Source: a virus. From it: 51,474 bases of DNA. This document shows positions 1,766 to 47,567 of the stretch, one piece after another. Numbering within the stretch: the stretch's first letter is position 1; each line of letters starts with the position of its first letter. Location: the IMG/VR virus record IMGVR_UViG_3300024344_000022, positions 1 through 51,474 of that record, one strand, 5' to 3'. The notes beneath the pieces were generated by a model that saw nothing but the letters and a program-made list of their open reading frames with translations, ran no database searches and was not told where the DNA came from. The position numbers and the translations under genes are program-made.

Positions 1766-1768
1766 TAT

Positions 1769-6309: not shown

Positions 6310-6329
6310 TGATTTTTCCTATTCTCTCG

Positions 6330-6695: not shown

Positions 6696-6706
6696 TTTAT
6701 GCCTTT

Positions 6707-9121
6707 CTATGTACGTTCAAATTCGTCAGTAACAGCATTGTAATTACCAACCGTTTGCCCTGATGAGGCATTTATCAATTTTCTTTTGCCATTTTTATCA
6801 ACAAATATTCTTAATTGACCTGACCCTAAATCTGGATTGTTTTCTAAGAAACGATTAACAGATTGACGTTCTCTATTTTCTTCGTCTCCAAGATTTCCTC
6901 TTGTGCCTGTTACTTCTCCTCCGGCAACATTTATTACTGATCCAGTTCCTCCTCCAGCCGCTACACCATCTTCATCGCCACCTCTATCACTGAAATCTGT
7001 TCCTGTACGTAATGCCTCTCGTATTAATTCTACAGATTCTGGATCAAAAGATTGTATGTTTTGCGTTAGACCTTCTAATAATTGTGGCGTTCCTGGCTTA
7101 TCTCTTAATTCTTGACCAGCAAGAATAGCACCAATCAAGTCCATATCAGCTTGTCTTCCAGCCAATGTTGAATCATCGCCTAACATTCCGGTCAAGCCGG
7201 CTCTACGCAGTTCAGCTTCCAATGTTGGATCGTCTTCAAACTCACCCGTCAAACCAGCGCGTGTGGCATCACGTCTTAATGCAGCCGTATCCAGTTCACT
7301 CTCCAATGCTCTTGCTTGCTGAGTCTCTACTGGAGCCATGTTCGCTGCACCTGTATCAAACAGTCCGGTCTGACCGGCTTCAGCTATTCTACGCTGTAGG
7401 TCTTCGGTCTGTAATCCGCTACCTGTGGTTTCACCCGTTAGCGTTTGCCGACCATCAATCTCACCAAACAACTGCGATTCTAACTGCTGACCAGCTAATG
7501 TTTTCTGACCATCATCTCCAAACTCGCCAGTTAAGGCAGCGTCTGCACGTTCCTGACCCCTACTTAACGCATCAAGTTCTGCGCTCTGTCTTTTTGCAGC
7601 CATTGTTTCATCGCGTTCAAATATTCCAGTTTGACCGGCTCTGGCAATGTCACGATTCAACGCTTGCGTTAGGGTGTCCTGTTGAGATCGAGTTTCCTGT
7701 AGACCCATACCGCGCTGGCCTAAATCAAAACCCTGAGCATCACGTAAGTCCTGTTGTCTGCGTTGTGCAGCCTGAGCTTCGAGTGCTAAACGGTTACGTT
7801 CATCGCCTTCACCCATTCTCGCTAAAGCGGCCGCTGTATCGCCTCCACCTCGCAACACACCATATCGACCCAACTGCTCGACCAAAGCCTTACGCGCTTC
7901 GTTCTGTCTGAATTGCTGATCGGCTAATTGTGAGGCCATAATCGGATCGTCTGTTCCACCGATTCGATCCATGTATTGCTGACGTAGTGCATCTTCTAGC
8001 GTATCAGCCATTGGTGCAGCTTCCGGTTCAACCACATTCTGCATAGCTGCCATATCTGCACCGGCATCTGGATTGTAAGGCGAAGGTTCAGTAGCATCAG
8101 CAGTTAGCTTTTTAACAAAATCTGCATCACTTAAAGGATTTTCTGTAAGCGCAGTTGCTTTAGTGGTTAAGTCTTTAACAAAATCTGGATCACCTAAAGG
8201 ATTTTCTGTAAGCGGTTGATTTGACCGTTCTTCTGCTAAGTCTTTAACGAACTCTGGATTACTTAAAGGGTTAGTCTCGGTTCTAACAGGCTCAGTTGCT
8301 TTAGCAGTTAAGTCTTGAACATACTCTGGGTTACTTAGAGGATTAGTATCAGGCGTAACTGGCGCAGTTGCTTTAGTAGTTAGGTCTTGAACGAACTCTG
8401 TATTACTTAAAGGGTTAGTTTCAGTTGTAACTGGCGCAGTTGCATCGGCAGTCAGCTTTTCAACAAAATCTGAATCACTTAAAGGGTTCGTTTCAGTTCT
8501 AACCGGTTCGGTTGCTTTAGTAGTTAAGTCTCGAACGAACTCTGTATTACTTAAAGGGTTCGTTTCAGTTCTAACCGGCTCAGTTGCTTTGGTAGTTAGG
8601 TCTCGAACAAACTCTGTATTACTTAAAGGGTTAGTCTCAGTAGCTGGCGGCTTTGAGCGTTCTTCTGTCATTGCCCGAACCGTTGATACATTACTTAAAG
8701 GGTTACTGTCAGTTGTAACTGGCTTAGTAGCTTTAGTAGTTAAGTCTTGAACAAACTTTGTATTACTTAAAGGGTTAGTCTCAGTAGCTGGCGGTCTACC
8801 AAAGTTCGGATTGCTTGTCGGGTTTGTCGTAGTTGCCGTAAGGTTACCGGGTGGTGGTGGAGGTGGTGGCATGGCTGGTGGTGTATTAGCACCCTGACTT
8901 GGAGTCGCTGTCGTTGTTGACGTATCTACGCCTCCTACGTTTCCTCCGACACCCGGAGCCATATTTGCGGCTTGGTTATTTGCACCGAATCCACTGCCGG
9001 TAGCACCTCCTTGTATGGCAGCAACTAATGGATCAACGCCTGTGTTCATTTGGTCATAGCCAACCGCGTTACCTTTTTTAGGCTTCTTGCCTAACATCAT
9101 CTCGTTATAGCTTACCGCCAT
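6707..9121 (-). CDS. Repeat-rich internal virion protein (copy A, 804 aa)
   Basis: An 804-residue protein with three parts. Residues 1-100 are Gly/Pro/Thr-rich and include a polyproline run. Residues about 105-345 contain eleven tandem units that start NPLS or NPTS and continue with a phrase such as FVRDLTTKATEPV. The remaining two thirds are helical and Gln/Arg/Ala-rich, with LTGEF or LTGML repeats spaced by acidic residues. The helical part is nearly identical to that of the 806-aa protein at 41351-43771, while the tandem region differs in unit type and number. It overlaps the nozzle gene upstream by TAATG at 9121. A structural or ejected core protein is likely; length changes in the repeats could tune dimensions or flexibility. 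Confidence 0.7.
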   Translation of the reverse strand: MAVSYNEMMLGKKPKKGNAVGYDQMNTGVDPLVAAIQGGATGSGFGANNQAANMAPGVGGNVGGVDTSTTTATPSQGANTPPAMPPPPPPPGNLTATTTNPTSNPNFGRPPATETNPLSNTKFVQDLTTKATKPVTTDSNPLSNVSTVRAMTEERSKPPATETNPLSNTEFVRDLTTKATEPVRTETNPLSNTEFVRDLTTKATEPVRTETNPLSDSDFVEKLTADATAPVTTETNPLSNTEFVQDLTTKATAPVTPDTNPLSNPEYVQDLTAKATEPVRTETNPLSNPEFVKDLAEERSNQPLTENPLGDPDFVKDLTTKATALTENPLSDADFVKKLTADATEPSPYNPDAGADMAAMQNVVEPEAAPMADTLEDALRQQYMDRIGGTDDPIMASQLADQQFRQNEARKALVEQLGRYGVLRGGGDTAAALARMGEGDERNRLALEAQAAQRRQQDLRDAQGFDLGQRGMGLQETRSQQDTLTQALNRDIARAGQTGIFERDETMAAKRQSAELDALSRGQERADAALTGEFGDDGQKTLAGQQLESQLFGEIDGRQTLTGETTGSGLQTEDLQRRIAEAGQTGLFDTGAANMAPVETQQARALESELDTAALRRDATRAGLTGEFEDDPTLEAELRRAGLTGMLGDDSTLAGRQADMDLIGAILAGQELRDKPGTPQLLEGLTQNIQSFDPESVELIREALRTGTDFSDRGGDEDGVAAGGGTGSVINVAGGEVTGTRGNLGDEENRERQSVNRFLENNPDLGSGQLRIFVDKNGKRKLINASSGQTVGNYNAVTDEFERT
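8080..8810 (-). repeat. In-frame tandem repeats, about 24 codons per unit (copy A)
   Basis: Eleven imperfect units inside the 804-aa gene, each opening with Asn-Pro-(Leu/Thr)-(Ser/Gly). Most are about 24 codons long; the first (promoter-proximal) unit is of the short 15-16 codon type that dominates the other module. Neighbouring units near 8280-8640 are almost identical at DNA level, which points to recent slippage or unequal recombination. Confidence 0.85.
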
Positions 9122-10623
9122 TATTCTATACCCGTGTTGCGTTCGCGTGTATTTCCAATAGGCTTGTATTGAAGATTTGTGCGACGAACTGTGAAAGGTT
9201 CATTTAAATTAAAATTGGAAAAACGAAGCATGGTTCGTGGATCGTAACCAGATAAATCTGAGTCCTGAGTTAATGCCGATACATCCGACTCTAATAATGA
9301 AGAATCCAAAACAAACGAACTATCCAGCAAACTGGCCACATTGCCCATTGTGATGGTTTCTGTGTTGGAAACAATACCGGCAGCAATTTGCGAAATACTA
9401 AGATCAAACGCCCCTTTGTTGTCAAACAATGTCCTGTTATACAGCCAGCGACATGATACTGCATCACCCCGAGGGGCAATGGAGGCCGTTTCAAAATACG
9501 CTTCAATAGCAGCTCCATCATCGTTTGTTCCACTGTCATGTTTATTAATCCGACCAGCAAAATCACCAGCATGTGGTAGGTCATCAATTAACGCTACACT
9601 ATCTCTTTCAAATCCACTATAGGGGCCAAACCAAGCATTCAAACGATATGAATATACAACCACACTATTCATTCTTGTCTGAGTGCTATCACCATAAGGC
9701 AAGAAGAACCAAACCTGTTCTTGTGCCGGATAATACAATGCAAACGAATAAGGCAATCGAGCTTTGTTTAGGTTCGGCCAATATCTATCGTCGAGCGCAA
9801 AGCTAACCTTTTCAACAGATGCACCACCTGACCATTGATATATGCCATCGTCTCTTACAAACAGCTGACGCTCACCAGGAACGGTAACAATGCTTTTCCC
9901 TGCAATCGTTCCACGTTGTGTGCGTTGTTGTTGCTGAAACGGTATGGTCGCATTACCTGTAGGCGTAAGTGTGTGTATGCCCTGCTCTGTGTGAATAGAT
10001 AAATAGTTTTGAAATGGGCGTAACCCCGTAATGTCATAACCTAATGAGAAAAAACTTAACGAACCCCAAGTTTCTATATCACCTGCATCGCTTCTCCATA
10101 TGCGATCTGCGGCTCCGTTTATGTTACCAACCCATGCCCTGTTTTCCCAAAAGGCTACCCACTTGGGTTTGGTGAACCGAGAGCTATCGTCGAGCGTTGC
10201 AGCGTTTGATGTTCCACCCGTCCATTTGATGCCGTCTGTGTCCTGACCGTTTACCGCAATCAATGTGCTACCGGCCAACACCCAATCCCACGTATAGTCA
10301 TCACCGGCCGTTATAGTCACACTGCCTGTTCGGTCTGTTGCTGTTCCACCCGTAACGTCAAAAAATTTATTGCCTGCAAAGGCAAACACTTTTTCTGTTC
10401 CAGCCAACACCACCTGACCACAAGCAGTTACTGTAGCACCGCTGTTCATTGCGGAACTGTTAAACTTTGCAAATCCATTTCGCTTTGACACTTCGCCAGC
10501 CAACCCTATGGTGCAATTTTCCATTTCAAACAAGCCGTCTGGTGGCATATCTTCAGCCGGTAAGCTGTAGTTTACCCCACTTCTCCAAGGGCCAAGGCGT
10601 AACGATTCGGCTGCAATCGGCAT
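9121..10623 (-). CDS. Tail nozzle / tubular-B-like protein (copy A, 500 aa)
   Basis: A 500-residue, beta-rich protein whose repeated Gly/Trp/Asp-containing strands (WVLAGSTLIAVNGQD, WENRAWVGN, GIYQWSGGASVE) are typical of beta-propeller tail nozzles such as T7 gp12. It lies directly after the 232-aa adaptor gene and is coupled at both ends by one-base-shared stop-start overlaps (10623 and 9121). The copy at 43771-45270 is close to identical over its whole length. It would close the short tail and contact the fibres. No signal peptide or catalytic motif is visible. Assignment rests on fold-like pattern and gene order rather than a diagnostic motif. Confidence 0.7.
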   Translation of the reverse strand: MPIAAESLRLGPWRSGVNYSLPAEDMPPDGLFEMENCTIGLAGEVSKRNGFAKFNSSAMNSGATVTACGQVVLAGTEKVFAFAGNKFFDVTGGTATDRTGSVTITAGDDYTWDWVLAGSTLIAVNGQDTDGIKWTGGTSNAATLDDSSRFTKPKWVAFWENRAWVGNINGAADRIWRSDAGDIETWGSLSFFSLGYDITGLRPFQNYLSIHTEQGIHTLTPTGNATIPFQQQQRTQRGTIAGKSIVTVPGERQLFVRDDGIYQWSGGASVEKVSFALDDRYWPNLNKARLPYSFALYYPAQEQVWFFLPYGDSTQTRMNSVVVYSYRLNAWFGPYSGFERDSVALIDDLPHAGDFAGRINKHDSGTNDDGAAIEAYFETASIAPRGDAVSCRWLYNRTLFDNKGAFDLSISQIAAGIVSNTETITMGNVASLLDSSFVLDSSLLESDVSALTQDSDLSGYDPRTMLRFSNFNLNEPFTVRRTNLQYKPIGNTRERNTGIE

Positions 10624-11321
10624 TATCCTATACTTCCTTCTGTGGGCTGAAAACTAAACTTACCAGAAATATGATCGTCTGACCTACGCATTCTGTATGA
10701 CCTGTTTCCTTGCACATTAAAGTTTTGCCGACCTGCTATTGCAATAACTCGTTCCATTTCTTGCTTGTCCGACAATGCACCCTGATCGTCACCTTTTTCT
10801 TGTTTATATAAAGCAGAAATGCCATGTATAAGTGCCGGCTGACATACAGGTGCTACATATGGATTTATAGAGTCGCTATCTTCAGATTCAGTAAACGTGG
10901 GTATAGAAGAATAATATCTATAGGCAATAGTATCTGTGCCGTCTGGCTCTGGATACAGCGTAACTTCGATGTTACCGCTTGCATCTACGCCATCAATAGA
11001 AACCCATCGAGGGTCACCATTTATAGAAGCATCAGGGTCAGCCGCATCAATATCCTGAGTAGACATGATGAGCATAACATGGTCTTCAGTAACATTACGA
11101 AATGAAAGAGGAGCTACTACGTCACTGGCCAACGAATACGTGCGAGTGCCGTTGGTTGTGCTAAAAGTAGAAGATTTAAACAGCCAGTTCCATTTTTCAC
11201 GCGAGGCTATGTCCTGAGTGACTAAGTTTAAATAGTCACGCGCCCCGTCTTTAAATGTGGAACTACCTGTATTCAGACCAACCCTTCTAAGGGCAATCTG
11301 AATGATCTGCAAATTTGTCAT
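10623..11321 (-). CDS. Tail adaptor / tubular-A-like protein (copy A, 232 aa)
   Basis: A 232-residue protein beginning MTNLQIIQIALRRVGL, followed by a conserved aromatic stretch REKWNWLF. This pattern of an N-terminal helix bundle, a Trp-rich turn and a beta region (LASDVVAPLSF, IEVTLYPEPDG) is seen in head-to-tail adaptors of podoviruses (T7 gp11 / P22 gp4-like). It is followed immediately by the nozzle gene. The homologue at 45270-45968 has the same length and over 90 percent visible identity. It should form the ring between portal and tail nozzle. A direct role is inferred from size, order and sequence character. Confidence 0.7.
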   Translation of the reverse strand: MTNLQIIQIALRRVGLNTGSSTFKDGARDYLNLVTQDIASREKWNWLFKSSTFSTTNGTRTYSLASDVVAPLSFRNVTEDHVMLIMSTQDIDAADPDASINGDPRWVSIDGVDASGNIEVTLYPEPDGTDTIAYRYYSSIPTFTESEDSDSINPYVAPVCQPALIHGISALYKQEKGDDQGALSDKQEMERVIAIAGRQNFNVQGNRSYRMRRSDDHISGKFSFQPTEGSIG

Positions 11322-11330
11322 TCGCTAACT

Positions 11331-11558
11331 CTATATTAGGTTAGCCCAGGAACCGCCTTCGTAGCCTTGAAACTTGTTGTCCGTAGAATTGTAAATAAGC
11401 ATTCCGTTAACAGCGGTGAGTGCGTTCCGTTCCGTTGTCGTAAGACTTGGAAGAGTAAACGACTCAGCCGCTTTAACGGTATCTGCTTCTACAGCCCCAA
11501 TCAACGCAGAATCTCCAAAAAATGAAGCTGCATTGACTTGTCCAAAAGTTTCTGACAT
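11331..11558 (-). CDS. Small virion protein with fibre-tip-like motif (copy A, 75 aa)
   Basis: A 75-residue protein. Its second half carries LTTTERNAL, NGMLIYNSTDNKFQGYE and a final Trp-Ala-Asn-Leu-Ile, a motif common at the ends of phage fibre and decoration proteins. The start ATG at 11558 sits next to the stop of the 139-aa gene upstream. The copy at 45976-46203 is the same length and differs mainly around residues 29-37. It is probably a small surface or fibre-base component; no more precise function can be assigned. Confidence 0.65.
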   Translation of the reverse strand: MSETFGQVNAASFFGDSALIGAVEADTVKAAESFTLPSLTTTERNALTAVNGMLIYNSTDNKFQGYEGGSWANLI

Positions 11559-11978
11559 CTACTGATGTGCCGTAGCCGCTAACTGATCGAGATCGTATTC
11601 AGACAAGTTATCGCCATTATTGTCCAACCAGCGTTCTGTCCATATACGAACGGCTTCTTCACCACGCTCTTTAATGCGCGATGGAGGGTCAGGCACAAAG
11701 CCAGGTTCGTGAGTGACCTCACCAACAGCACGAACATGATTTCGCACTTGGCTGTTGGTAATTGGTGATTTGCGCTGACGAGTGTGCGTCTTGTCCAAGT
11801 CTAACGCCTTACGAATTGCATTTTTAGTCTCATCACTTCCCTTGAGTATAAGGTCAGCAATTTGATCTGGCGTAACACTGGCTGTTGGAGCTTCAACAGG
11901 TGTAGTGGACGTTACTTCTGCGATCTCATCAGGCAGGGTATGCTCTTGCTGTTTTTGCGGAGCCATACGTTTTGCCAT
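11559..11978 (-). CDS. Hypothetical virion-operon protein (copy A, 139 aa)
   Basis: The ATG at 11978 (MAKRMAPQ) is preferred to an in-frame GTG at 12032, because the homologue at 46204-46626 starts at exactly the equivalent MAKRM and a purine-rich AAAGAAAG stretch lies upstream. The protein has a disordered N-terminus, then TPDQIADLILKGSDE, a basic RQRKSPITNSQVRNH segment and an acidic end (DNNGDNLSEYDLDQ). It lies between the decoration-protein and small virion genes. The function is unknown; a head-completion or assembly role is possible from position only. Confidence 0.6.
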   Translation of the reverse strand: MAKRMAPQKQQEHTLPDEIAEVTSTTPVEAPTASVTPDQIADLILKGSDETKNAIRKALDLDKTHTRQRKSPITNSQVRNHVRAVGEVTHEPGFVPDPPSRIKERGEEAVRIWTERWLDNNGDNLSEYDLDQLAATAHQ

Positions 11979-12047
11979 TGTTTTCTGCTTTCTTTTGTAA
12001 AAACGTGCAGCAGTAGTTTTACCCACTGCCACACGAAAAATTAAAGG

Positions 12048-12794
12048 TTACGGCAAATTCTGCAATACTACACCAGCGTAACCTGTAGTGTCTGGAGCAT
12101 ATGCAGCATAACCAACCAATGGTTCTGTTTCTGCATCTTTAGCATGAACTGCGCCAGTTACACCATCACTTAAGGTAAGGTTGTTACCAGCGGCAATGGT
12201 TCCATCTGCTAAGACAGTAGCAACACCGCGAGTCTGCACCCACCCGTAATAATTTACAGTAAACGATATTGGAGTAACACCGCAAACCACATAATCTGTG
12301 GCACTTGCACCAATAAGGTTATTCCATAAACCACCTGTAACGGCCACGTCAGTAGCAGTAGTTACAGCCACTTTTAAGCCGTCATACAAAGTAAATGTAA
12401 CTGCATTTGAACTTGCAGCAGTGCTTGACTTAATACGATACTGAAAACCTTCACCAGCATCATCGGTGGTATGAAGATAGCCACCAGCATACTGATTTAG
12501 CGTAGCCGATCCAACAGTACCCGAATCGGTGTATGTAACTTCAGTAGCACCAGCCGCTGCTGCCGTTAGCTTGTTATCGCTCTCAACAATAGCTGACACT
12601 GAAAGGTCTTGCGAAGTAAGCAATCCCTGTGCAGTAGCTGTGCTGAAATACGCATAACGAAACACACGACCATCAGACAACTCTAACTTTTCACCAACTC
12701 TATGTTTTGGCGTAGACGACTCTTCGTAGATGCTCTGACCGCCATCTCCTCCGATTCGATCCAACCCATAGTTGGCGTTTTGTATTGTACTCAT
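12048..12794 (-). CDS. Probable head decoration protein (copy A, 248 aa)
   Basis: A 248-residue, Ala/Thr/Gly-rich beta protein directly downstream of the major capsid gene. This is the usual place for a capsid decoration or stabilising protein. Recognisable features are GEKLELSDGRVFRYAYF near residue 35, the central GGYLHTTDDAGEG motif and a C-terminal AKDAETEPLVGYA. A strong ribosome-binding site (AAAGGAG) precedes the ATG. The homologue at 46712-47500 is 262 aa, with most differences in the first 30 residues. Assignment is by position and composition. Confidence 0.6.
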   Translation of the reverse strand: MSTIQNANYGLDRIGGDGGQSIYEESSTPKHRVGEKLELSDGRVFRYAYFSTATAQGLLTSQDLSVSAIVESDNKLTAAAAGATEVTYTDSGTVGSATLNQYAGGYLHTTDDAGEGFQYRIKSSTAASSNAVTFTLYDGLKVAVTTATDVAVTGGLWNNLIGASATDYVVCGVTPISFTVNYYGWVQTRGVATVLADGTIAAGNNLTLSDGVTGAVHAKDAETEPLVGYAAYAPDTTGYAGVVLQNLP

Positions 12795-12862
12795 TGTTCA
12801 TTCTCCTTTGTCCTTTTCTTCGGACTCGAAAGGCTCATTGGCTTGAACCTTGGAATTAACTA

Positions 12863-13849
12863 TTAACTGATACCAGTAATAACACCCTGGCGTCTACGGT
12901 TGTTCGTAACTACTTGCAGGCCAACAGTTATGAAGGCCACCTTAGCCAACTGGTTTGAATTTTCGCGGAATGGAGTCTTGCTAAAATTCATACCTGACTG
13001 CATGTGCATCTTCAAGTAATTGGTATTGAAGAAATACATACGACCCGATCCGCAGTCACGGTCATACTGCACCGGAATACCACGGAACGATGGCAAACGA
13101 CCATCTACGCCTGGTGAATCGTTACCCGAAAGACGCTGATAACCAGTGCCTTCAAATATCTCTTCAAACGAAGCATAAATAGAATTTGTGGTAAATATGT
13201 TTGTAGGCTGTTCATTGCCTTCGGACGTTGCATTCCAAAGGTTAGCCATACGAATCATACCTTCATAAAAGTTTGTTCCGGTAATCGTCTTAAATGACGT
13301 ATCGCCAGAAGCATCTTCCGTCTTGTTCTTCCACCACGTATTGCCAGCTACCGTAATACCACCCAACGTAGTTGGAGTCGTTCCCGGTGCGTCAGCAATG
13401 ATGTCTTGGAATCCTAACGGAGCCTTACCTGTCTGTGCAGAATACAACGAAGAGTTAATCTGATCGCGCAAGGTCAACATACTCTGACGAGTCTTGGCCT
13501 CTAATAGCGACATTGCTGCTTCGCGTTTGCGGTTTTCTTGCTCTTCGGTAAAGTTAATCGTAATAGGCACTGCGGCGTATCTAAACGGATAAAAAGCGGC
13601 CGTGATACCATCTACCGCATCTGTATTTAGCACGTCATAGCCCGAGAAATATTGCGCTGAGTTACCAGCATACAAAATATCTGCCTGTATTTCTTTGCCA
13701 CCATTATCGGTGACTAATGCTCCACCGGAGCGAAACATGTCTAAAGTTGGGTATGCGTCAAAAAAGTTATCGGTCAACTCTTTGCGTTTGGCCCGCATCG
13801 TAAGCGTCCAAGCCGCATCCCAGCTTTCTGAAGTTGTTGTTGCTGCCAT
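12863..13849 (-). CDS. Major capsid protein (copy A, 328 aa)
   Basis: A 328-residue protein between the scaffold and decoration genes. Features consistent with an HK97-fold capsid protein are a helical N-arm (residues 10-40), the FTEEQENRKREA spine-like helix near residue 100, and a C-terminal domain with IPVQYDRDCGSGRMYFFN and a final basic segment RRRQGVITGIS. The copy at 47568-48554 is about 95 percent identical by eye, and this is one of the most conserved genes between the modules. It is followed by a 68-nt gap before the decoration gene. Fold-level identity is inferred from size, order and pattern. Confidence 0.8.
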   Translation of the reverse strand: MAATTTSESWDAAWTLTMRAKRKELTDNFFDAYPTLDMFRSGGALVTDNGGKEIQADILYAGNSAQYFSGYDVLNTDAVDGITAAFYPFRYAAVPITINFTEEQENRKREAAMSLLEAKTRQSMLTLRDQINSSLYSAQTGKAPLGFQDIIADAPGTTPTTLGGITVAGNTWWKNKTEDASGDTSFKTITGTNFYEGMIRMANLWNATSEGNEQPTNIFTTNSIYASFEEIFEGTGYQRLSGNDSPGVDGRLPSFRGIPVQYDRDCGSGRMYFFNTNYLKMHMQSGMNFSKTPFRENSNQLAKVAFITVGLQVVTNNRRRQGVITGIS

Positions 13850-13862
13850 TTTCTATTTGTCC

Positions 13863-14732
13863 TTATTCAAAACCCAATTTGGAAAGACCCGACAATACAT
13901 CGGAGTCGCTAAGTGGGCCGTCTCCTTCCGTTGCATCAACACCTTGCGTACCACGAACAGACCTTTTTGAGGACTTTCGTGCGGAATTATTAGCTCCACG
14001 CAGATCAGACGCTTTTTGAGCGGTAATGCCTGCATGTAACTCATACGCCTCACGAACTGTATACGGACTTCCTGTAACAGGGTTAGTAATCTTTGTAGTA
14101 GCAACAATCTGATCGGTATAAGCGTCCAGATCACCACCATAAGCCTGCCTTGCTTCACCTACTTGGTTGGCTATATACGCAGTTTGCTGACCTTGCACAT
14201 AATTATTGGCCGTAGACAGCTGTTGTTGTAACTGCTGAACTTGACTGTTCAAGTTATTAACAACATTTCCTACCCTATGCTGAATAATCTGCTCAACGGC
14301 ATCTACGCCTCGAGCTTCATCTTCAGATAAGTTTGCCCTCATTGCATCTACAGGATCTACTTGTTGCTGTTGGGGTGTAACAAGGTTTTGCACCCTATTA
14401 GCCCATTCGCCCTGTTGCGCTTCAATCTGCCTGCGCTGTTCTGCAAGATCCTGTTGAGTCCTGGTAAACTGTGCCTGCATGTTTTTTGCAAGCGGAACTA
14501 ACGGCTGATACTGCTCCGGCACATCGTCTGCTGAACCACGCAACCAATCATGCCTTTGTGGGTCAAAATCTGACTGTGCATCAGAGTGTCCAGAGCTTTC
14601 TGACTGTGCCGAATCAAGGGTGTCATCTGTAAACAGTTCAAGAGAAGATTCTGTTGACTGATCCTGAGATGATCCTACATCGGGTGACGAGTCTTCCGCA
14701 CCGGAGTCCAAAGCGAGTACTGATTCAGACAT
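13863..14732 (-). CDS. Scaffold protein (copy A, 289 aa)
   Basis: A 289-residue protein immediately upstream of the capsid gene. It has an acidic Ser/Asp/Glu-rich N-terminus (residues 1-60), a central Gln-rich coiled coil (residues about 80-185, with runs such as LNSQVQQLQQQL) and a basic patch (SARKSSKRSVRGTQG) before a short helical tail LSGLSKLGFE. This build of acidic start, coiled-coil centre and basic capsid-binding end is standard for podovirus scaffolds. The copy at 48568-49437 has the same length and the same terminal motif. Confidence 0.75.
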   Translation of the reverse strand: MSESVLALDSGAEDSSPDVGSSQDQSTESSLELFTDDTLDSAQSESSGHSDAQSDFDPQRHDWLRGSADDVPEQYQPLVPLAKNMQAQFTRTQQDLAEQRRQIEAQQGEWANRVQNLVTPQQQQVDPVDAMRANLSEDEARGVDAVEQIIQHRVGNVVNNLNSQVQQLQQQLSTANNYVQGQQTAYIANQVGEARQAYGGDLDAYTDQIVATTKITNPVTGSPYTVREAYELHAGITAQKASDLRGANNSARKSSKRSVRGTQGVDATEGDGPLSDSDVLSGLSKLGFE

Positions 14733-14735
14733 TTA

Positions 14736-15134
14736 CTAATCTCCTTCGTTATATTTCTTCTTTGCCAGAGCCACTGCTTCTTCGGGTGTGTTACCAAACG
14801 AAGGAGTAGGGGTGTCTGACGAAGCAGAGTTTGCTACATCAGAGGTTATGTGACATCGAGAACCGCCAACTGCATCGGCACTTTCTCTCACGTTGTACTT
14901 TTTTAACAGTTCTTGTTTATGACTGTACGACTCTACAACCTGACCAAAGCCTGCATGAAACTTACCATACATATTGCTGTGTGAGTTATGGATGAAGTTG
15001 CTCTTTATAAACAACATGTTAGCATCTTTTTCACACTGGTCGCATTTGATCTTACGTTTAATATTATTAGAATCGTTTTGTATGTCAAGCTGACGATGTC
15101 CGTCTTCGCATTCGTAATCGTGAAATACCAGCAT
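14736..15134 (-). CDS. FmdB-like zinc-ribbon protein (copy A, 132 aa)
   Basis: A 132-residue protein starting MLVFHDYECEDGHRQ, with a second cysteine pair KCDQCEKDA about 25 residues later. Cys9 plus the Cys-x-x-Cys pair resemble one half of the FmdB-type zinc ribbons found in phage head modules. The remainder has a conserved SNFIHNSHSNMYGKF segment. It lies between scaffold and portal, as in many marine podovirus-like genomes. The copy at 49438-49839 is nearly identical. Metal binding is likely; the biological role is unknown. Confidence 0.6.
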   Translation of the reverse strand: MLVFHDYECEDGHRQLDIQNDSNNIKRKIKCDQCEKDANMLFIKSNFIHNSHSNMYGKFHAGFGQVVESYSHKQELLKKYNVRESADAVGGSRCHITSDVANSASSDTPTPSFGNTPEEAVALAKKKYNEGD

Positions 15135-15862
15135 TATTGACCTGTAGGCGGTTTATACATTTTTCTATCTGAATAAAATTGTTGGCGTGGATTTTGTTTT
15201 TTTATTTTTTTCATGAGTTGTGAAATATCATAGTCTGGAGATGCCATATTTTTTAACGCTTGTTTTTTAACTTCACTATATATTTGTTTTCCTGTCATTT
15301 GGTCATCAGGAAAATAATCGTCTGGTCTAATATCGTTTTCTTTCATTGCGCGTTCGGTGTGTATCCGCGCAATTAATTCTTTGTTTTTTTGTATAGTTTC
15401 TGGCGAAGTAGGTATAGCTTCTTTTGGTAATATGTTTCTCTCTTTTAAAGAGGCCGTGTCTTGACGAGTATACGTTATTCCTGATTTTGGATCAGTATAG
15501 TAAGCCTCTGGAGAAACACCTTCGCCTTTGCGTATTTGTTCATCAGATAAATCAATGCCTCTTATATTTAAATCATCATAAATTCCTGTTCTTAGTCGAT
15601 TTCCCGATTCAACCATCCCTGATCCTGTTGTTGCCATTGGATCAGATTGTCCAAAAGCCTGTCGCTCAATGCCTTCATACTCAGGATTTGGCACTAACTC
15701 TCTAAATTGTCCTCCATACTTTAACGCACTTTCATCTGTGTTTTTAGTAAGCCAATCAGGAATAGGCTTATCTCTGTAATGTATACGTGTGCCTTTAGAC
15801 TTTTGTTCTTTTGGCAAAGCCCCTCTAAGCTTTCTGCCAGCATCTTTTAGTGCGCCTAACAT
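15134..15862 (-). CDS. Hypothetical protein present only in copy A (242 aa)
   Basis: A 242-residue, lysine-rich, hydrophilic protein I do not recognise. It has no membrane segment and no catalytic motif. It is inserted exactly between the zinc-ribbon and portal genes: in the other module these two genes abut at 49839 with a shared stop-start, and here both junctions (15134 and 15862) keep a similar one-base overlap. The gene is visibly more AT-rich than its neighbours and has many AAA/TTT codons. It looks like a recently acquired cargo gene (moron) or a lost gene in the other strain. Some residues (PDWLTKNTDESALKYGG) recall small linker-type phage proteins, but no assignment is possible. Confidence 0.6.
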   Translation of the reverse strand: MLGALKDAGRKLRGALPKEQKSKGTRIHYRDKPIPDWLTKNTDESALKYGGQFRELVPNPEYEGIERQAFGQSDPMATTGSGMVESGNRLRTGIYDDLNIRGIDLSDEQIRKGEGVSPEAYYTDPKSGITYTRQDTASLKERNILPKEAIPTSPETIQKNKELIARIHTERAMKENDIRPDDYFPDDQMTGKQIYSEVKKQALKNMASPDYDISQLMKKIKKQNPRQQFYSDRKMYKPPTGQ

Positions 15863-17904
15863 TATCCTTGACCCGGTGCATTCTGTATAGCCTGAGAAAC
15901 TTCTTGAGCTTGGCTACGTACAAGTGACGTAATATTACCTTCCGCTACTCCGGCATTACTACCACCACCGCCACCAGCTTGAGGTGCTTGACCTTGAGCC
16001 ATTTGGTTCAGCATTTGCTGATGTTGCTGGATATGGTTTTGCACTACACCCATAACCTGCTGTTGTTGCTGTGGAAGTAATTGTTGAAACTGTGGAAGTT
16101 GTTGTATTTGCTGATGATACTGTATATGCAACTGATGATCTTCAAAAGGCGTAACCCCAGGATCACCGCCATTAATAAGATAGGCTACGTTTTCTAACTG
16201 AGCCGCTTTTACTGCATCGCCGTCTTCAGCGTTACCCAGATATTTGTCAGGGTCTTGCACACGGAAAGAAGCCAATAAACCTTTAATGGCTTCAATGCGG
16301 TTTATTTCTGGCAAGTTAATTGTCATGTTAAAAAGCTGTAGTGCATCCTGACGTTCAAGCTGTTCCGTCAACGGCTGCATACTACCAGCCTGTATTTCTA
16401 TTTTGTATCGTATCCGCAAAAGGTCTGCCGTAACTGCTTCAAAAACAGGATCTTCCGTGTCTTGAGCTACGTTAACCAAAAACTCATCAGGCAAATATCT
16501 TTCATCAGCCATCATACGCAATGAGTTACGAACAATAGACCGATACGCATCGGCTACACGCAACTGCATCCACTCGCGGTTTACTTGTGCAAAGCTTGCA
16601 GACAAACTTGCCTGTGTTGCCGTAACTCTTGGGCCACCCATTGCCATCTGCGATACGTTTAGACTTTGCTCTTCATAACTTTGTGCATCCGACTCTAAAC
16701 CCAACTGATCTGGTGGAGGGTTACCAAAGTTCATTTCACGCATACTGGTATTGGGATCTTCTACCCATATGATCTCACCGTCACGACCGTTTTCTAACGT
16801 ATCGCCAATGTCCTGATTTGCTTCACGTTCTCTTCGAGAAGCTAAAACTACACGTTGGAAACGCTTTAACAGATCGGCTCTGCGTGATACAGACTCTACT
16901 ATAAGTGACTGTGTATCCTCAACATACGCCATTGGAGGTTCGCCATAAAACGAACGTTCGGTCTGATCAAACCGCAGTGCGTGGTATGGAAAACCACCAT
17001 CCATCAGGTATCCACCGGCAGGCTCAAACTCGCCTGTCATCATTTGTTCGCCAGTAAAAGGATCAGTCTCTGTAATTGGTTTCATTGCCAAAAACGGATG
17101 ATCTACTTCTTCAATAGGTTCATCCAATCCTTCGGCAAACGTAATACGCTTTTTATGCAGACGGTCATGCACTTCATACAAACAAACCATCTGACCCTGT
17201 TTAGAATGCTGCACCGCATTGTATTCATCGCTATGCTCAGAGTCTTGCATATCGTATATAAACGAATCAGCCTGATCTTCATCTGACATCGCTTTTATCT
17301 GCCGTCTGTTTTTAAACCTGTCATCCTCTTTAACAAACTCTAAAGGAACCATCATTTTTTCAATGATATACCGTGCGCCTGACAATTTGTGCGGAGGAGT
17401 AAGCGGATCAATGTATATATTAAAAGGCGAAACTCGATGTACGTAAGGAAAATCGTTTTCCTGAGCATCGTTAATAGTATACGGTGCAACAATATCGTCA
17501 TCACCCGGAGGGTTATATCCAAACTTTAACCAACCTACACTACAAAACAGCGCATCAAAAATAACCTGCTGCACTTCTCTTTTGGCATTCATCTGTTCTA
17601 ATGTAGCATTAGCCACACGTTCCAGTATTTCAGCCGCAAAGTCTCTACCAGGTTCCTCAACTTTAAAAAAAACATGAGGATAATTAAAAGAAACACTGGC
17701 TATGATCTGACGGGCGAGTGGATACATACGGGATATTTTAACAATCTTATCCTCGTCAAGGTTTGGAACGTCAAAATCAAGCTCATATGTCTTGAGAAGC
17801 CTACGCCACGTTTTGTGGCGCGTCTTCATGTATTTTCGACCGTCCTCTATAGCTCCACGCCAGTATTCGATCTGTCTTTCTTTCAAACTATTTGCCTTTG
17901 CCAC
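15862..17904 (-). CDS. Portal protein (copy A, 680 aa)
   Basis: A 680-residue portal. The N-terminus contains a basic helical region (RHKTWRRLLKTYEL), then conserved phrases typical of long podovirus portals: PLARQIIASVSFNYP, SVGWLKFGYNP and HRVSPFNIYIDP. There is a long helical barrel-type C-terminus that is Gln-rich (residues about 600-640), followed by a Gly linker. The start is GTG at 17904-17902, since the frame reads GTG-GCA-AAG and no ATG is available. It overlaps the 39-aa gene upstream by 17 nt. The copy at the right end is 5-prime truncated. It would form the dodecameric DNA channel and bind terminase. Confidence 0.85.
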   Translation of the reverse strand: MAKANSLKERQIEYWRGAIEDGRKYMKTRHKTWRRLLKTYELDFDVPNLDEDKIVKISRMYPLARQIIASVSFNYPHVFFKVEEPGRDFAAEILERVANATLEQMNAKREVQQVIFDALFCSVGWLKFGYNPPGDDDIVAPYTINDAQENDFPYVHRVSPFNIYIDPLTPPHKLSGARYIIEKMMVPLEFVKEDDRFKNRRQIKAMSDEDQADSFIYDMQDSEHSDEYNAVQHSKQGQMVCLYEVHDRLHKKRITFAEGLDEPIEEVDHPFLAMKPITETDPFTGEQMMTGEFEPAGGYLMDGGFPYHALRFDQTERSFYGEPPMAYVEDTQSLIVESVSRRADLLKRFQRVVLASRREREANQDIGDTLENGRDGEIIWVEDPNTSMREMNFGNPPPDQLGLESDAQSYEEQSLNVSQMAMGGPRVTATQASLSASFAQVNREWMQLRVADAYRSIVRNSLRMMADERYLPDEFLVNVAQDTEDPVFEAVTADLLRIRYKIEIQAGSMQPLTEQLERQDALQLFNMTINLPEINRIEAIKGLLASFRVQDPDKYLGNAEDGDAVKAAQLENVAYLINGGDPGVTPFEDHQLHIQYHQQIQQLPQFQQLLPQQQQQVMGVVQNHIQQHQQMLNQMAQGQAPQAGGGGGSNAGVAEGNITSLVRSQAQEVSQAIQNAPGQG

Positions 17905-19557: not shown

Positions 19558-20014
19558 CAGAAGTTTCCACTGTGTATGTTGTTTCTACCGCTTGATCCAT
19601 CTTGTTATTCTGTTTTAACCACTCATCGTAACTTTCAGCCCTTGGAGGCACATTCAATCCCTTAACCTCAACGGTATGCTCAACCTGTATGCGGTGATCA
19701 CCTACTTCTTCACGTAACTCCTTTAAAACCTTTAACTTAAGTGCTACTCGCCTGTCTTCAATCTTATGATACAACTCCTCTAAAGCTAACACCCTGTTTT
19801 TACGCCAAGCTAAAGGCACATCGTCAAAATTAGACCGATCCCGTTCAATCTCTTTCTTTAACGCTTTGTCAAATTCTGCATTCTTACGCCAGCGATAAAT
19901 CGTACCCCGATCCACTTCAAGCGTTTTAGCCACCTTGTCGTTTGCCCTGGAAGGATTCCACCTATCCAACACAATCAACTGCACTGCCTGTTGCTGTAAA
20001 TCACTTAATGCCAT
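19547..20014 (-). CDS. terS: Terminase small subunit (155 aa)
   Basis: A DNA-recognition subunit of packaging. It has an N-terminal helix-turn-helix (residues about 24-45: NDKVAKTLEVDRGTIYRWRK) and a charged coiled-coil centre with ALEELYHKIEDRRVALKLKV. The C-terminus is flexible. The ATG at 20014 is chosen over 20026 because GGAG lies 6 nt before it and it forms a TGATG overlap with the peptidase stop. It precedes terL in the same operon with a 52-aa gene between. The HTH-plus-coiled-coil design and position support the call; sequence is more variable in this family than in terL. Confidence 0.8.
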   Translation of the reverse strand: MALSDLQQQAVQLIVLDRWNPSRANDKVAKTLEVDRGTIYRWRKNAEFDKALKKEIERDRSNFDDVPLAWRKNRVLALEELYHKIEDRRVALKLKVLKELREEVGDHRIQVEHTVEVKGLNVPPRAESYDEWLKQNNKMDQAVETTYTVETSDET

Positions 20015-20439
20015 CAGTAACTCCATAACGCAGGGCGAGGAACATGAAAATTATCGTCCACACCTACCGTATCCAAATGTAAAAACCGCCTCGATCCACT
20101 TTGCTGCACCCCAATACCCGTAAAACCTAACTTTATAGCAGCAAAAAGCACCTGATAGGCAAACCCACGCTCACATGCTACATCTACCGCCTTACCCGTA
20201 GTATGCGACCCGGCAGGCTTATCATCCGCTATCTTAGCCGCTTCAATCGAATGATCCATAGACCTATAACCCGAAGTAATCGTCAACGGTTTACCTACCG
20301 CCTCACGTAACTTTTGTAACTTATCCATAAACTCATCGTCCAACCGACACATACCCGTTTGGGAACAACGCATCTCTGCATGGGAAAAGTTAGGCCAGCG
20401 ATCTTCCGGCCACTCACTTTCTTTGTATTCTCTTATCAT
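20014..20439 (-). CDS. M15-family peptidase, probable endolysin (141 aa)
   Basis: A 141-residue peptidase of the M15A type. The signature ITSGYRS (residues about 54-60), SHTTGKAVDVA (about 78-88) and FLHLD (about 119-123) supply the metal-binding His, Asp and His. Such enzymes cut peptidoglycan cross-bridges, so this is the most likely lysis enzyme. It has no signal peptide and would need a holin (candidates at 33704-34601). It is the first gene of the leftward late operon and overlaps terS by TGATG. Placement next to terS rather than with the holins is compatible with circular mapping. Confidence 0.85.
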   Translation of the reverse strand: MIREYKESEWPEDRWPNFSHAEMRCSQTGMCRLDDEFMDKLQKLREAVGKPLTITSGYRSMDHSIEAAKIADDKPAGSHTTGKAVDVACERGFAYQVLFAAIKLGFTGIGVQQSGSRRFLHLDTVGVDDNFHVPRPALWSY

Positions 20440-20484
20440 AACCGTAAATGTATTAAAAACAAAAATCTACGCAAGATAAAAAAA

Positions 20485-20513
20485 ATAACACAGCAAAAAC
20501 GTGGGATTCACAA
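20485..20513 (-). promoter_or_regulatory. Candidate promoter of the leftward late operon
   Basis: On the minus strand, TTGTGA (20513-20508) and TGTTAT (20490-20485) are separated by 17 nt, 45 nt upstream of the peptidase start. The -10 match is only 4 of 6. It is the best sigma70-like pair I find before the first gene of the virion operon. Confidence 0.35.
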
Positions 20514-20525
20514 AAATAAAACTCG

Positions 20526-20554
20526 TTGACAAATAAAAACCCACCCCCTATCTT
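20526..20554 (+). promoter_or_regulatory. Strong sigma70-like promoter before the structured region
   Basis: TTGACA at 20526-20531 and TATCTT at 20549-20554 with a 17-nt spacer, pointing rightward. A transcript would start near 20561 and run into a 500-nt stretch without a credible gene. The early promoter at 23173-23201 uses the same TATCTT -10 box and spacing. Part of the spacer (20540-20549) is also one arm of a 10-bp perfect helix, so both cannot serve the same transcript in full. Confidence 0.6.
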
Positions 20555-21065
20555 CCAACACACTTCGGATCAGTAGAGGACGAGTGTAGCATCGCTACCC
20601 CACTGGCTCTACAGACCGTGATACAGTCGCTACCAGGGGGTGGGTCAACAGCGACAAACCTTGGGTGAAAGCAGGGAGAGGTGACCTACGGTTCGGTGTA
20701 GAATCGACAAGTAGCCTGCAAACCGAAATGACACACCGCTCTTTCGGCAGCTATACGAGGAACTCAACGTGACGGTCAAAGTCATCTCGAGGGAAAAAGC
20801 GTAAGACAGGAGAGAGGCTAACAACCTCCTCCGTCTACAGCTAACACACATAAACCACAGGCAAAACTACCTGGGGTAAGACACCGGTGTAACTTCCAAA
20901 GAATCTAACGTTCAAGTCAAATAGCCAAACAGTAGTACAACATTCCGCAAAATGATCAGAAACAGGGGCACGTATGGCTGAGTATATACGGGTTCGTTTT
21001 CTTTTTAGGGGCCGGCATGGTGCTTCGCAAATCGTCGAGGGCAATCCAGGAAAAGCAGCAATCTA
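20540..21065 (+). ncRNA. Candidate large structured non-coding RNA (about 500 nt)
   Basis: No frame here gives a plausible protein; the minus-strand frames at 20645-21044 lack ribosome-binding sites and have odd composition. Complementary segments are long and nested. CCCACCCCCT (20540-20549) pairs perfectly with AGGGGGTGGG (20635-20644). Inside it, GTAGAG (20573-20578) pairs with CTCTAC (20607-20612), and inside that AGTGTAGC (20583-20590) pairs with GCTA (20594-20597) and CACT (20601-20604). A 12-bp helix with two single-A bulges joins 20804-20817 to 20825-20836 around loop CTAACAA. A shorter hairpin is CAGG/CCTG near 20868-20883. The region is clearly less AT-rich than what follows at 21065. 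It recalls large phage RNAs such as GOLLD or ROOL in size and setting, but I cannot match it to either. A packaging site or origin is an alternative. Confidence 0.55.
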
Positions 21066-21383
21066 GAATTTATTTTTATTTTTATTTTTACAAAAAAAAG
21101 GTTTCATAGTTTTAGTTATAAACCAAAAGCAAAAACCAAAAGATATTTTTTTGCTTATTAATGACCAAGGTAATTGACAATATGTGTGCGATAGATTTCT
21201 AAGCATAATATGATATTGGGAAAATCGATTGTATTGTGTTGTGCGTTCCTGATTCCACATAGCACAAAAAAGAAACAACACACCAACACCAACACCAACA
21301 CAACACCTGACGTTTATCCGAATAGTTGCACAGTCTCATATCAACTATGACCTCTTAGGTGTCTTAACTTGCCAATTAGGCAC
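21066..21383. other. AT-rich intergenic stretch without a gene
   Basis: Begins with ATTTTT-type repeats at 21068-21090 and an A8 run near 21090. GGTTT and AAACC around 21100-21117 could form a weak hairpin read leftward into a T8 run. Three perfect CCAACA units lie at 21283-21300, flanked by partial ones. No credible coding frame or RNA gene is visible. Confidence 0.5.
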
Positions 21384-21515: not shown

Positions 21516-22313
21516 TTATTGACCTAGTCTTTCCATAGTTTCACAATCCCATACGCCTTGCATTGAAAACGTTACATGATAATTAGGAAACGCTAGACCA
21601 TCATCATATCTATCATTGCTCATCATGGCTAATGCATACCATGGCATCTTTGAGTAGTCGTAGAATTGAATATTTGGATGTCTTTCAAATAGTGTCTTTG
21701 TATCTATTCGCATTTTATCCCATCTAACGTCTGATAGACCATTTAGACGTGCATACGCTTGGATATGTCTATTCTCTTTTATTGATCGTTTACTAGCTCT
21801 CTTGGTCAAGTTTGCTAGCTCTCTGTCAATTTGTAATAAGAATAATTCTTTGTATTTCAACATAAACTTTGTACGATTAAATCTGGCCAATTGTGACTGA
21901 CTAAAAACATTCATTCCAGTTTTTGACAAACAACTTTTATGGCATGGCGCGCTAGCATCATACTTACCTTTAACGGACAGTCCGACAATCACGTTATCTT
22001 CTCTGTATGTTCCATCTGGCAAATAGCAATCATTGCTCCGTAGGTCAGTTTTAACACCATTAATTATTTCTTTACCCCACATACGGGAACCTACAAACGT
22101 ATCAGGTTCACCATTAAAAATAACAGCAACATTAATTCCAGACTTTAACATTTGAATAGCTTCTGTTTTGTTGCAAACTTGGTCCGCTTTACAACATAAA
22201 TTTTTTAGTCCAGATTCATCATACGGAGCTAGTTGAAGTATCACAGATTCAGCGATCTCACTATCTTTATTAAGCTTGTTATTTCCCGACATTTTAGTAA
22301 GTAAATTTTTCAT
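21516..22313 (-). CDS. gp88-like protein (265 aa)
   Basis: A 265-residue protein resembling the phage gp88 / DUF7227-type family I know from mycobacteriophages and many metagenomic phages. Its features are LAPYDESG followed by a CC-x5-C cluster near residues 39-46, a second CHKSC cluster near 123-127, and QLARFNRTKFMLKY. The C-terminal half has AYARLNGLSDVRWD and HPNIQFYDYSKMP, which in relatives form the conserved core. The clustered cysteines suggest metal or iron-sulfur binding. The biochemical activity of the family is not established to my knowledge. It is last in a leftward operon and its start is one base after the stop of the 45-aa gene (TAAATG). Confidence 0.65.
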   Translation of the reverse strand: MKNLLTKMSGNNKLNKDSEIAESVILQLAPYDESGLKNLCCKADQVCNKTEAIQMLKSGINVAVIFNGEPDTFVGSRMWGKEIINGVKTDLRSNDCYLPDGTYREDNVIVGLSVKGKYDASAPCHKSCLSKTGMNVFSQSQLARFNRTKFMLKYKELFLLQIDRELANLTKRASKRSIKENRHIQAYARLNGLSDVRWDKMRIDTKTLFERHPNIQFYDYSKMPWYALAMMSNDRYDDGLAFPNYHVTFSMQGVWDCETMERLGQ

Positions 22314-26955: not shown

Positions 26956-27384
26956 ATGGTTAATAGAATTATTAAGGATATCGATTTTGGTGGTGAAGAT
27001 GACAGTGAAGATGATTACGAAGGTAAGTATAATGACGATGACATCTTGCAAGTTAACGAAGAGAAAATGTCTCTGATGATAGGGGCATACGATGTAGCGT
27101 ATCATATGCTCAAATATGCAAGACCTTTCGTTGAAAAAATTTGCTCATTCAACGATGAAATATTGGATGAAATGCAAGACACATTAGACGCTTTTATGTA
27201 TTGCACCGCCAACAAAAATGAGGAGGATGTAAGCTATTGGGATGTCGTAAAAAGTGAGAACGATCAACAGTTTCGGAGTGTTAAAGATAAAGATATGTCT
27301 ATTGCAGTTACTAAGTTCCTACAGCTTTTTGAAAAAGTAAAAGGTATCGACCTCGATGCTGACAAAAAAGGAGATAGCGAATGA
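26956..27384 (+). CDS. Hypothetical acidic protein (142 aa)
   Basis: The ATG at 26956 is preferred to one at 26941, because GGAG (26943-26946) precedes it whereas no ribosome-binding site precedes 26941. The N-terminus is extremely acidic (GGEDDSEDDYEGKYNDDD), followed by a helical domain with KMSLMIGAYDVAYHML and LDEMQDTLDAFMYC. Its stop overlaps the integrase start as ATGA. No family is recognised. An acidic start next to a recombinase would suit a DNA-mimic or directionality role, but this is speculation. Confidence 0.55.
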   Translation: MVNRIIKDIDFGGEDDSEDDYEGKYNDDDILQVNEEKMSLMIGAYDVAYHMLKYARPFVEKICSFNDEILDEMQDTLDAFMYCTANKNEEDVSYWDVVKSENDQQFRSVKDKDMSIAVTKFLQLFEKVKGIDLDADKKGDSE

Positions 27385-28310
27385 GTTTGATTGCATTACA
27401 GCATCCAATACAAGACGAGCTAAAAAGTTTTTTGGATTCGATTGCATCGGAAAATAAAAGTAGCTCAACACGGACTGCCTACCAAACTGATTTGGAGCAG
27501 TTTTTTGAAACCAAAATAATTACTCAGGATCAAGTCAAATCGATTACGATGGAGGATGTAGAAACCTATCGAAACGATTTGATTAGCCAAGGTCGAAAGT
27601 CAACAACAGTCAATCGGAAGCTTACTTCTTTGCGTAAATTTTTTAAGCGTTTGATTGCAAAAGGCATTGTCGATGTCAACCCTGCGGATACAGCTGTAGT
27701 GAAATCGATGAAGGTTGAGCCGTCTGTCATGGGCAAATCGATTAGCCGTGAAGACATAGAAAAAATGATTGAGTGCAGCCTGGAAAACAAAAATCGGTTA
27801 AAGTCAGCCAGAGATTATGCAATGCTTTTGATTATGGTTTATTGCGGACTAAGAAGGGCTGAAGTAGCCAACATGCGATGGATCGATTTGATTGTCGAAG
27901 ACGGCTATAATGTATTGCGATTGCCCAAAACAAAATCTCAGGTCGAACAGTTTGTGAAGATTCCTAAGAGGGGTTACAATGCACTCAGGAATCTGGAATT
28001 AGCCTACAGTAACTTCTATGATGTCCCAACAATAGATGGATACATCTTCACCTCAATGTCGAAACATCAGAACTTTGGAAGGCAACTGTCAGTGAATTCG
28101 ATTAGGCGTATCGTCATGGGCTATGGCAAACAGATAGGCATTTCGATTACGCCTCATATGTTCCGGCATTCATGTTGCACGTTGGCGATTGAGGGTGGAG
28201 CAAAGCCTCATCAGGTCCAAGCACATCTACGCCACAAGGATATTAAAACGACCATGCTCTATTACGATGCTAAAGATAAGTTAACCGATAATGCATCTGA
28301 TTATATTTAA
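27381..28310 (+). CDS. int: Tyrosine recombinase / integrase (309 aa)
   Basis: A XerC/D-like tyrosine recombinase. The N-terminal SAM-like core-binding domain spans about residues 10-100 (STRTAYQTDLEQFF, then TVNRKLTSLRKFFKRL). The catalytic domain has YCGLRRAEVANMRW with Arg158, a Lys in PKTKSQ near 184, PHMFRHSCCTLA with His259 and Arg262, LRHKD with His285, and the nucleophile Tyr in MLYYDA (294 or 295). All catalytic positions are present, so it should be active. It could integrate a temperate phage or resolve multimers. It overlaps the preceding gene by ATGA. Eight in-frame TTTGATTR words lie between 27386 and 28759, five of them in this gene. Confidence 0.92.
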   Translation: MSLIALQHPIQDELKSFLDSIASENKSSSTRTAYQTDLEQFFETKIITQDQVKSITMEDVETYRNDLISQGRKSTTVNRKLTSLRKFFKRLIAKGIVDVNPADTAVVKSMKVEPSVMGKSISREDIEKMIECSLENKNRLKSARDYAMLLIMVYCGLRRAEVANMRWIDLIVEDGYNVLRLPKTKSQVEQFVKIPKRGYNALRNLELAYSNFYDVPTIDGYIFTSMSKHQNFGRQLSVNSIRRIVMGYGKQIGISITPHMFRHSCCTLAIEGGAKPHQVQAHLRHKDIKTTMLYYDAKDKLTDNASDYI

Positions 28311-34179: not shown

Positions 34180-34601
34180 TAACCTTGATGTAACGCTTTC
34201 CATACTGAACCATAAATTACTGTAGTTAAAAACATTAACAAGCCAAAAACCTGGTCGTGTTCCCAAAAACTTTCCCAGTTGTAACCTCCAGGAAAGCCTG
34301 CATGGTCCCAATATAAGTAGGCAATAGAAACGGTAGTCCCTGCTGCTCCAGACCACATGCCTGACTTCTGAGCAGCTTTAGCAAGCTCTTCGCGCTTAGT
34401 CATAGTAACTAAGTTTCTTGAAATACGCTTATTAGTAGCTTTTAAGTCATCTCTGTCATGTTTAAATTCCTTAGCAATAACATTTTCATTTGCCACCTGT
34501 TGGCGTAAATGAGTAATCTCTTTTACCGCCTCGACGTATAGCCTTCTTTGACGCTCTGCGGAAGGTATCTGTTCTGGAGGTGGATATTTATTCGGACTCA
34601 T
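34179..34601 (-). CDS. Coiled-coil membrane protein, holin candidate (140 aa)
   Basis: A 140-residue protein with a coiled-coil helix at residues about 15-75 (ERQRRLYVEAVKEITHLRQQ, DDLKATNKRISRN). Two hydrophobic segments follow (about 82-98, SGAAGTTVSIAYLYW; about 117-135, VFGLLMFLTTVIYGSVW), and a short basic end. It lies directly after the fibre gene in the leftward operon. Two membrane helices and position fit a holin; the long helix could instead bind a lysis partner. Confidence 0.5.
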   Translation of the reverse strand: MSPNKYPPPEQIPSAERQRRLYVEAVKEITHLRQQVANENVIAKEFKHDRDDLKATNKRISRNLVTMTKREELAKAAQKSGMWSGAAGTTVSIAYLYWDHAGFPGGYNWESFWEHDQVFGLLMFLTTVIYGSVWKALHQG

Positions 34602-41036: not shown

Positions 41037-41051
41037 TATGTTTTCCTGTTT

Positions 41052-41339: not shown

Positions 41340-41350
41340 TTTATGCTCCT

Positions 41351-45968: not shown

Positions 45969-45975
45969 GCTAACC

Positions 45976-47500: not shown

Positions 47501-47567
47501 TTCTATTTCTCCTTTGCCTTTTTGCTCGGCTCAAAAGACGCATTGGCTTGCGTCTTGGAATTGTTTA

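Follow-up and report, generated by a model that had tools for sequence, protein, structure and literature searches.

The window analysed here, a 51,474-base stretch of DNA from the IMG/VR virus record IMGVR_UViG_3300024344_000022, probably contains a real non-coding RNA gene, as judged from the comparison of related sequences, although not quite the one that was first drawn. A sequence-only reading had proposed that the interval 20540-21065 is one structured RNA with its own promoter. An RNA body at about 20561-20925 is supported, while the interval ends on the right in a distinct DNA element that shows no RNA structure. The case for a structured non-coding RNA that has a promoter of its own comes mainly from the slot that it occupies and from a sister RNA, strongly covarying, that fills this slot in related phages; in the window RNA itself, one pair covaries. 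The RNA belongs to no class in Rfam or in the literature searched, and its type is undescribed. Our explanation, which we put forward tentatively, is that it is a free-standing structured non-coding RNA gene at a phage attachment or dimer-resolution locus, with a regulatory role tied to the state of that site.

The promoter and the RNA body of the window

The stretch is flanked on the left by the genes for an endolysin (20014-20439), TerS and TerL, all leftward, and on the right by a leftward gene for a protein with a GP88 domain (21516-22313), followed by rightward early genes that include a C5-cytosine methylase, a tyrosine recombinase and a RusA-like resolvase. A sensitive DNA search with positions 20440-21100 gave no matches among 50,697 phage records, and the TerL matches among these records were all below 60% identity. 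Relatives were collected by a TerL search of viral contigs (59 loci), a profile search (165 loci, 80 of them kept) and a motif search (15). Near relatives could be aligned across the entire stretch. Forty-one loci that differ in the 200 bases around the conserved motif described below were compared; since some of them are near-identical strains, they do not amount to 41 independent cases.

The promoter noticed in the sequence-only reading, TTGACA-17-TATCTT, is a predicted sigma-70 promoter with an A-rich upstream region (20526-20554, plus strand). It is the only exact match in the window, and no match was found in shuffles. A counterpart, defined as TTGACN or TTGNCA, 16-18 bases and TANNNT, was present upstream of the motif in 34 of the 41 loci, compared to 3.4% in Markov controls and 3/41 on the reverse strand. 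The loci negative for this pattern were L062, L068, L101 (by eye TTGCTT-17-TATCAT), L115, L126, L127 and L133. The distance from the -35 box to the motif ranges from 327 to 701 bases across the loci and is 456 in the window. The promoter points rightward, away from the late operon and toward the recombination-like site, and the start of the transcript is predicted near 20561.

The interval had been described as free of any believable gene and richer in G and C than the sequence after it, and both statements hold. The G+C content is 0.527 at 20550-20849 and 0.337 at 21000-21299. A protein gene in the interval is ruled out, the two internal minus-strand open reading frames being broken within the clade: the frame at 20645-20851 is frameshifted in 2/9 clade sequences (L009, L011), and the frame at 20841-21044 is interrupted in 5/9 (L006, L007, L008, L009, L011).

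The RNA body of the window clade (approximately 20561-20925, plus strand) has a mean column identity of 94% over nine sequences. A 49-pair structure drawn from the window is paired in 98.2% of the cells across the eight distinct sequences of the clade. Forty-two of these pairs are invariant, one has changed on both sides, four have changed on one side (one of them with three unpaired cells) and two depart through unpaired cells. The pair changed on both sides lies in helix P2, formed by GTCGCT and AGCGAC (20626-20631/20650-20655, plus strand), and is U-A in five and C-G in three of the eight distinct sequences. The pairing of these two words had been noted as a possible pseudoknot or switch; it carries the only both-sided change in the clade, and its role as a switch is corrected. 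The rod built of GTAGAG, AGTG and TAGC pairings (20573-20612, plus strand; helices 20573-20578/20607-20612, 20583-20586/20601-20604 and 20587-20590/20594-20597) is present with 100% of cells paired, and the 12-bp helix with two A bulges (20804-20836, plus strand) is present as well. Both are invariant in the eight distinct sequences, so that the comparison speaks neither for nor against them. Two hairpins (20689-20694/20701-20706 and 20723-20728/20742-20747, plus strand) are paired in 97.9% and 100% of cells, with one-sided changes only, and a small hairpin of GTGAC and GTCAT (20769-20785, plus strand) is paired in 82.4% of cells, in a gapped part of the alignment.

The 10-bp helix that had been drawn as closing the structure (20540-20549/20635-20644) is not supported by the comparison. 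It is paired at 10/10 positions in the window only, and the other eight of the nine sequences pair at 7-8 of 10, as counted in a fixed register with a one-base slip outside the scoring. Its 5' arm falls within the promoter spacer and the first base of the -10 box, and because it lies inside the promoter it would not be transcribed from it.

Compensating changes, which had been suggested as a check, give a weak answer in the window clade (1/49 pairs). One double-changed pair was reached by 406/500 shuffles, while the observed covariation score was reached by 11/500; taken alone, the covariation of the window clade is weak. The G-U pairs agree with the plus sense, that is, the sense of the promoter, both here and in the sister RNA. 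The folding energy was at the level of shuffled sequences, with z of 0.13 for 20540-21065 and -0.08 for the predicted transcript. Among 16 representatives, z fell below -2 on the plus strand in just L013, L016, L023 and L096, all of repeat-rich types. The profile of the window clade gives weak matches, in the expected position, to L072 and L088, two contigs of a single type, with E 0.56 among all loci and E 0.008 and 0.0035 in a small set. Overall, the comparison raises the window stretch modestly above chance.

The slot and its two RNA types

A homologous RNA of about 320 nt follows the promoter in three other clades (L018/L064/L067; L086/L089/L090/L091; L101/L062/L068). RNAalifold gave 53 pairs for this sister RNA, 15 of them with both-sided changes; 28 pairs were retained and 25, from weak, local or poorly aligned helices, were dropped. 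Over the three clades the 28 pairs are formed in 280/280 cells and 12 have changed on both sides, while slid versions of the structure are paired in at most 42% of cells. A fourth clade, L176, was found later through the motif and preserves the structure: with it, 305/306 cells are paired, 14/28 pairs have changed on both sides, and slid controls reach at most 45% of paired cells and at most four both-sided pairs. As the structure was derived from three of the four tested clades, the share of paired cells is biased in its favour. On four of five measures none of 500 shuffles matched the observed values; the fifth, further pair types, was not above shuffles (496/500 and 345/500 reached the observed value). 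The compensating changes thus speak clearly in the sister RNA, and they argue that the shape of the RNA is under selection in the four sister clades.

The sister profile reaches the window at the motif only and does not find the L072 RNA, and R1, the covariance model of the sister 5' domain, matched neither the window RNA nor the L072 RNA. A single family for both RNA types is therefore unsupported, and the strong covariation supports the slot, not the window molecule directly. By sequence comparison, what is shown is that two RNA types occupy one slot.

We also noticed that the 12-mer CCGATGTATTAG occurs twice (nt 193 and 280) in the RNA bodies of L086, L089 and L090, which was seen in 0-2 of 200 shuffles. 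The other clades seem to have different words at these two places, not significant by their length, and the longest internal repeats of the other 11 RNA sequences were not rare in shuffles. A few RNA words were searched for complementary partners, and no clear partner emerged.

The conserved DNA element and the recombination-like core

The right part of the original interval is occupied by a conserved element, 20982-21019, with no assigned strand, consisting of GTATATACGGGTTCG (20982-20996) and a TTCGC box about 30 bases further on. Across loci the shared motif reads GTATATNCGGGTTCG, with a deviation at one base in L013 and L101 (2/41), and a TTCGC-like box about 30 bases after it is found in distant relatives too. 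With up to three mismatches allowed, the motif core has one copy in the window; one copy was also found in each of 17/20 records and none in the other three, which rules out a repeated promoter. Thirty representatives gave no consensus RNA structure on either strand, so the motif is read as a DNA element and not as an RNA structure; the last ~85 nt of the interval correspond to this conserved element without consensus RNA pairing. Only L142 and L157, which are contigs already known, scored well among 32 motif matches at new loci. The matches in L165 and L182, within apparent coding sequence, look like chance. Among close relatives homology ends at or soon after the motif (window 20982-21126), and L008 appears as an L007-type left side fused to an L002-like right side.

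Downstream of the motif, at +88 to +148 from its start, an 11-6-11 inverted repeat that fits ATAW-N6-TTNT was found in 31 of 38 scanned loci, with arms complementary at 6-10 of 11 positions (three of the 41 loci were too short for the scan). The best site averaged 7.2 across the 38 loci, compared to 3.5 when the same rule, set after reading the sequences, was applied to base-shuffled copies. We considered a regular spacing between motif and core but make no such claim. The candidate Xer/dif-like core of the window, AGGTTTCATAG-TTTTAG-TTATAAACCAA (21099-21126, no assigned strand), is a weak copy, complementary at 6/11 arm positions, and the scan chose an A/T-rich stretch at +88 in its place; the aligned site in L002, a near relative, scores 9/11. 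No ATAW-N6-TTNT site was found at +88 to +148 in L086, L089, L090, L091, L126 and L133. L086 and L089 carry GGTTCGCATAA-ATCTGG-TTATGTAAACC at +40 from the motif, a sequence that is absent from L090 and L091 and that resembles a host dif. This site and the TTCGC box of the conserved element overlap, so the box might serve as a half-site for a recombinase in the other clades as well. The cores of L031 (+108) and L033 (+110) look like exchanged half-sites, TAGTGC/GGACTA and TAGTCC/GCACTA, the outcome expected from recombination between two sites.

The window also encodes an XerD-like tyrosine recombinase of 309 aa (27381-28310, plus strand). It belongs to the phage-integrase family (PF00589, 3e-26) and matches TIGR02225 XerD at 1.7e-37; since the latter score is below the equivalog cut-off, we do not call it XerD. 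The recombinase is present in 5/15 further records. None was found in the L086/L089 clade, of which four records were scanned, one of them 35,032 bases long, and neither core nor recombinase was found in the 33,402-base record L172. L115, L116, L127, L176 and L178, partial records of 4.6-13.7 kb, have a core and gave no recombinase match, which weighs against a strict linkage of the two. The recombinases of L028, L029 and L037 are 95-97% identical, yet their cores differ.

Eighty-six stretches of genome contigs matched two TerL peptide patterns, but none encoded a relative. Since no integrated copy of the phage was found among them, we infer rather than observe that the locus is an attachment or dimer-resolution region. 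The RNA pattern matched two stretches of genome contigs, L139 and L140 (the latter with E 0.0011, but chosen on those very bases), and both are taken as chance.

How far does this arrangement depend on the RNA itself? Nine of the 41 motif loci have the window-clade body, ten the sister body and L072 a weak window-type match, while 21 have neither, so the frame of promoter and motif reaches further than any recognisable RNA. As the promoter and the motif outlast the RNA body, the main rival is that transcription toward the site matters and the RNA does not, its sequence being replaceable, or acting only as antisense to a late leader. Promoter and motif persist where the middle is repeat-rich and without recognisable RNA: GTAC occurs 7-14 times per 330 nt before the motif in L013, L016, L028, L033, L043 and L096, all among the 21, where about one copy is expected. 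Moreover, the late genes lie on the strand opposite to the promoter and to its left; in this reading a strong promoter would direct transcription against the late operon and across the recombination site. However, the rival has to explain the both-sided compensation among the four sister clades, where the RNA shape would be selected, and no late promoter was demonstrated on the right side. We consider it unlikely, though to be taken seriously.

Functional readings and the nearest known systems

In the free-standing RNA gene that we tentatively prefer, the promoter would read rightward into a folded RNA of about 0.36 kb, which would start near 20561 and end before or within the DNA element, and which may act as a regulatory RNA with its expression tied to the state of the site. 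If the prophage is opened at the core, the RNA gene would become the outermost gene of the element, at its extreme end and transcribed outward. This reading draws on the conserved promoter, the sister covariation, the P2 change, the non-coding character of the stretch, the cores, the recombinase and, in the L086/L089 clade with no recombinase found, the dif-looking site of two contigs; against it stand the folding energy, the ease with which shuffles match one double change, the failure of the sister model to match the window RNA, the 21 loci without a body and the weak core of the window. The link to the core is further opposed by L090, L091 and L172, which show none, and by the post hoc choice of the rule. 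A bolder version, in which the RNA is a working part of Xer-type phage recombination and controls or signals integration, excision or the resolution of dimers, two types without detectable similarity serving in the same slot, seems to us decidedly doubtful.

A precedent for a regulatory RNA tied to such a site exists, because the cer site of ColE1 encodes Rcd. Rcd is an RNA of ~70 nt encoded in this Xer site and made from Pcer in dimers only, and it binds tryptophanase and renders the cell quiescent (PMC5357621). The same text describes VGJphi as a phage with a dif-like attP that uses Xer recombinases (PMC5357621). Rcd resembles the window RNA in being encoded at an Xer-type site, a candidate one in the window, and differs in size, ~70 nt against ~0.36 kb, and in the window the -35 box lies several hundred bases from the motif. 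It may be regarded as the closest working analogy; homology is not claimed, the sequences having been compared through the Rfam scan only. CTXphi likewise has a dif-like attP and uses Xer recombinases. These two phages and, with a candidate site, the present loci have in common a dif-like site on a phage, but in most clades here the recombinase is an XerD-like one of the phage itself and the arms do not look like dif, the dif-looking site being limited to L086 and L089.

ColE1 RNA II is a pre-primer RNA for replication, and the order of promoter, folded RNA and conserved DNA element in the window resembles it. The transcript could accordingly prime a phage or plasmid-like replication at the motif, and the conserved single-copy element, 327-701 bases from the -35 box, would suit this, as would the finding that none of the scanned early proteins matched a family of replication initiators, helicases or polymerases. 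Many of these proteins have no family match at all, so that the absence of an initiator is not established; an antisense promoter of the RNA I type was not detected within the window body at the scan threshold, and the motif is associated with Xer-like sites and not with a known origin. Such a role is distinctly improbable. Still less probable is that the window stretch yields no functional RNA, only conserved DNA sites among helices formed by chance: the energy z near 0 and the single covarying pair would fit, but not the conserved promoter in front, the high non-coding conservation and the covarying sister RNA in the slot. A packaging region, with the motif as a pac- or cos-type site and the RNA as a packaging RNA, is the least probable, since, although TerS and TerL lie directly to the left and the element is conserved and single-copy, the motif is internal in three long relatives, whose contigs open elsewhere (which speaks against cos at the motif), and in relatives whose TerL is 79-90% identical no RNA body can be recognised.

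The sequence-only reading had compared size and setting to GOLLD and ROOL RNAs while placing the RNA in neither class. No Rfam family, GOLLD, ROOL, HEARO and OLE included, reached its cut-off in the window, which speaks against these four identities and bears out that caution, and relaxed scans of four stretches gave just weak, unrelated matches. The likeness to GOLLD and ROOL is that of phage structured RNAs of unknown function. A ROOL measures 659 nt and GOLLD is often above 800 nt (PMC12286853), whereas the window body is smaller; GOLLD and ROOL are often near tRNA genes, and no tRNA was found in the window or in three long relatives. A literature search, from which subscription journals and bioRxiv were absent, found no paper on the window RNA. 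The preferred reading would thus add an RNA of an undescribed type, together with a strongly covarying sister counterpart, to the few structured phage RNAs of unknown function, in a context that can be tested, with a conserved promoter, a DNA element, a candidate Xer-type core and a recombinase in one genome. If the RNA does act on the site, it would constitute an RNA partner for site-specific recombination in phages.

Two minor observations concern the records themselves. The sole Rfam match in 11 relatives is a type II hammerhead ribozyme in L090 (1229-1314, minus strand; 40.3 bits against a cut-off of 37), about 2.6 kb to the right of the motif. Window positions 1-17900 and 34600-51474 are two diverged copies of the late module, with ~80-88% DNA identity over long stretches; together with the circular gene order of the relatives, this suggests either a contig that wraps around and combines two strains or a tandem.
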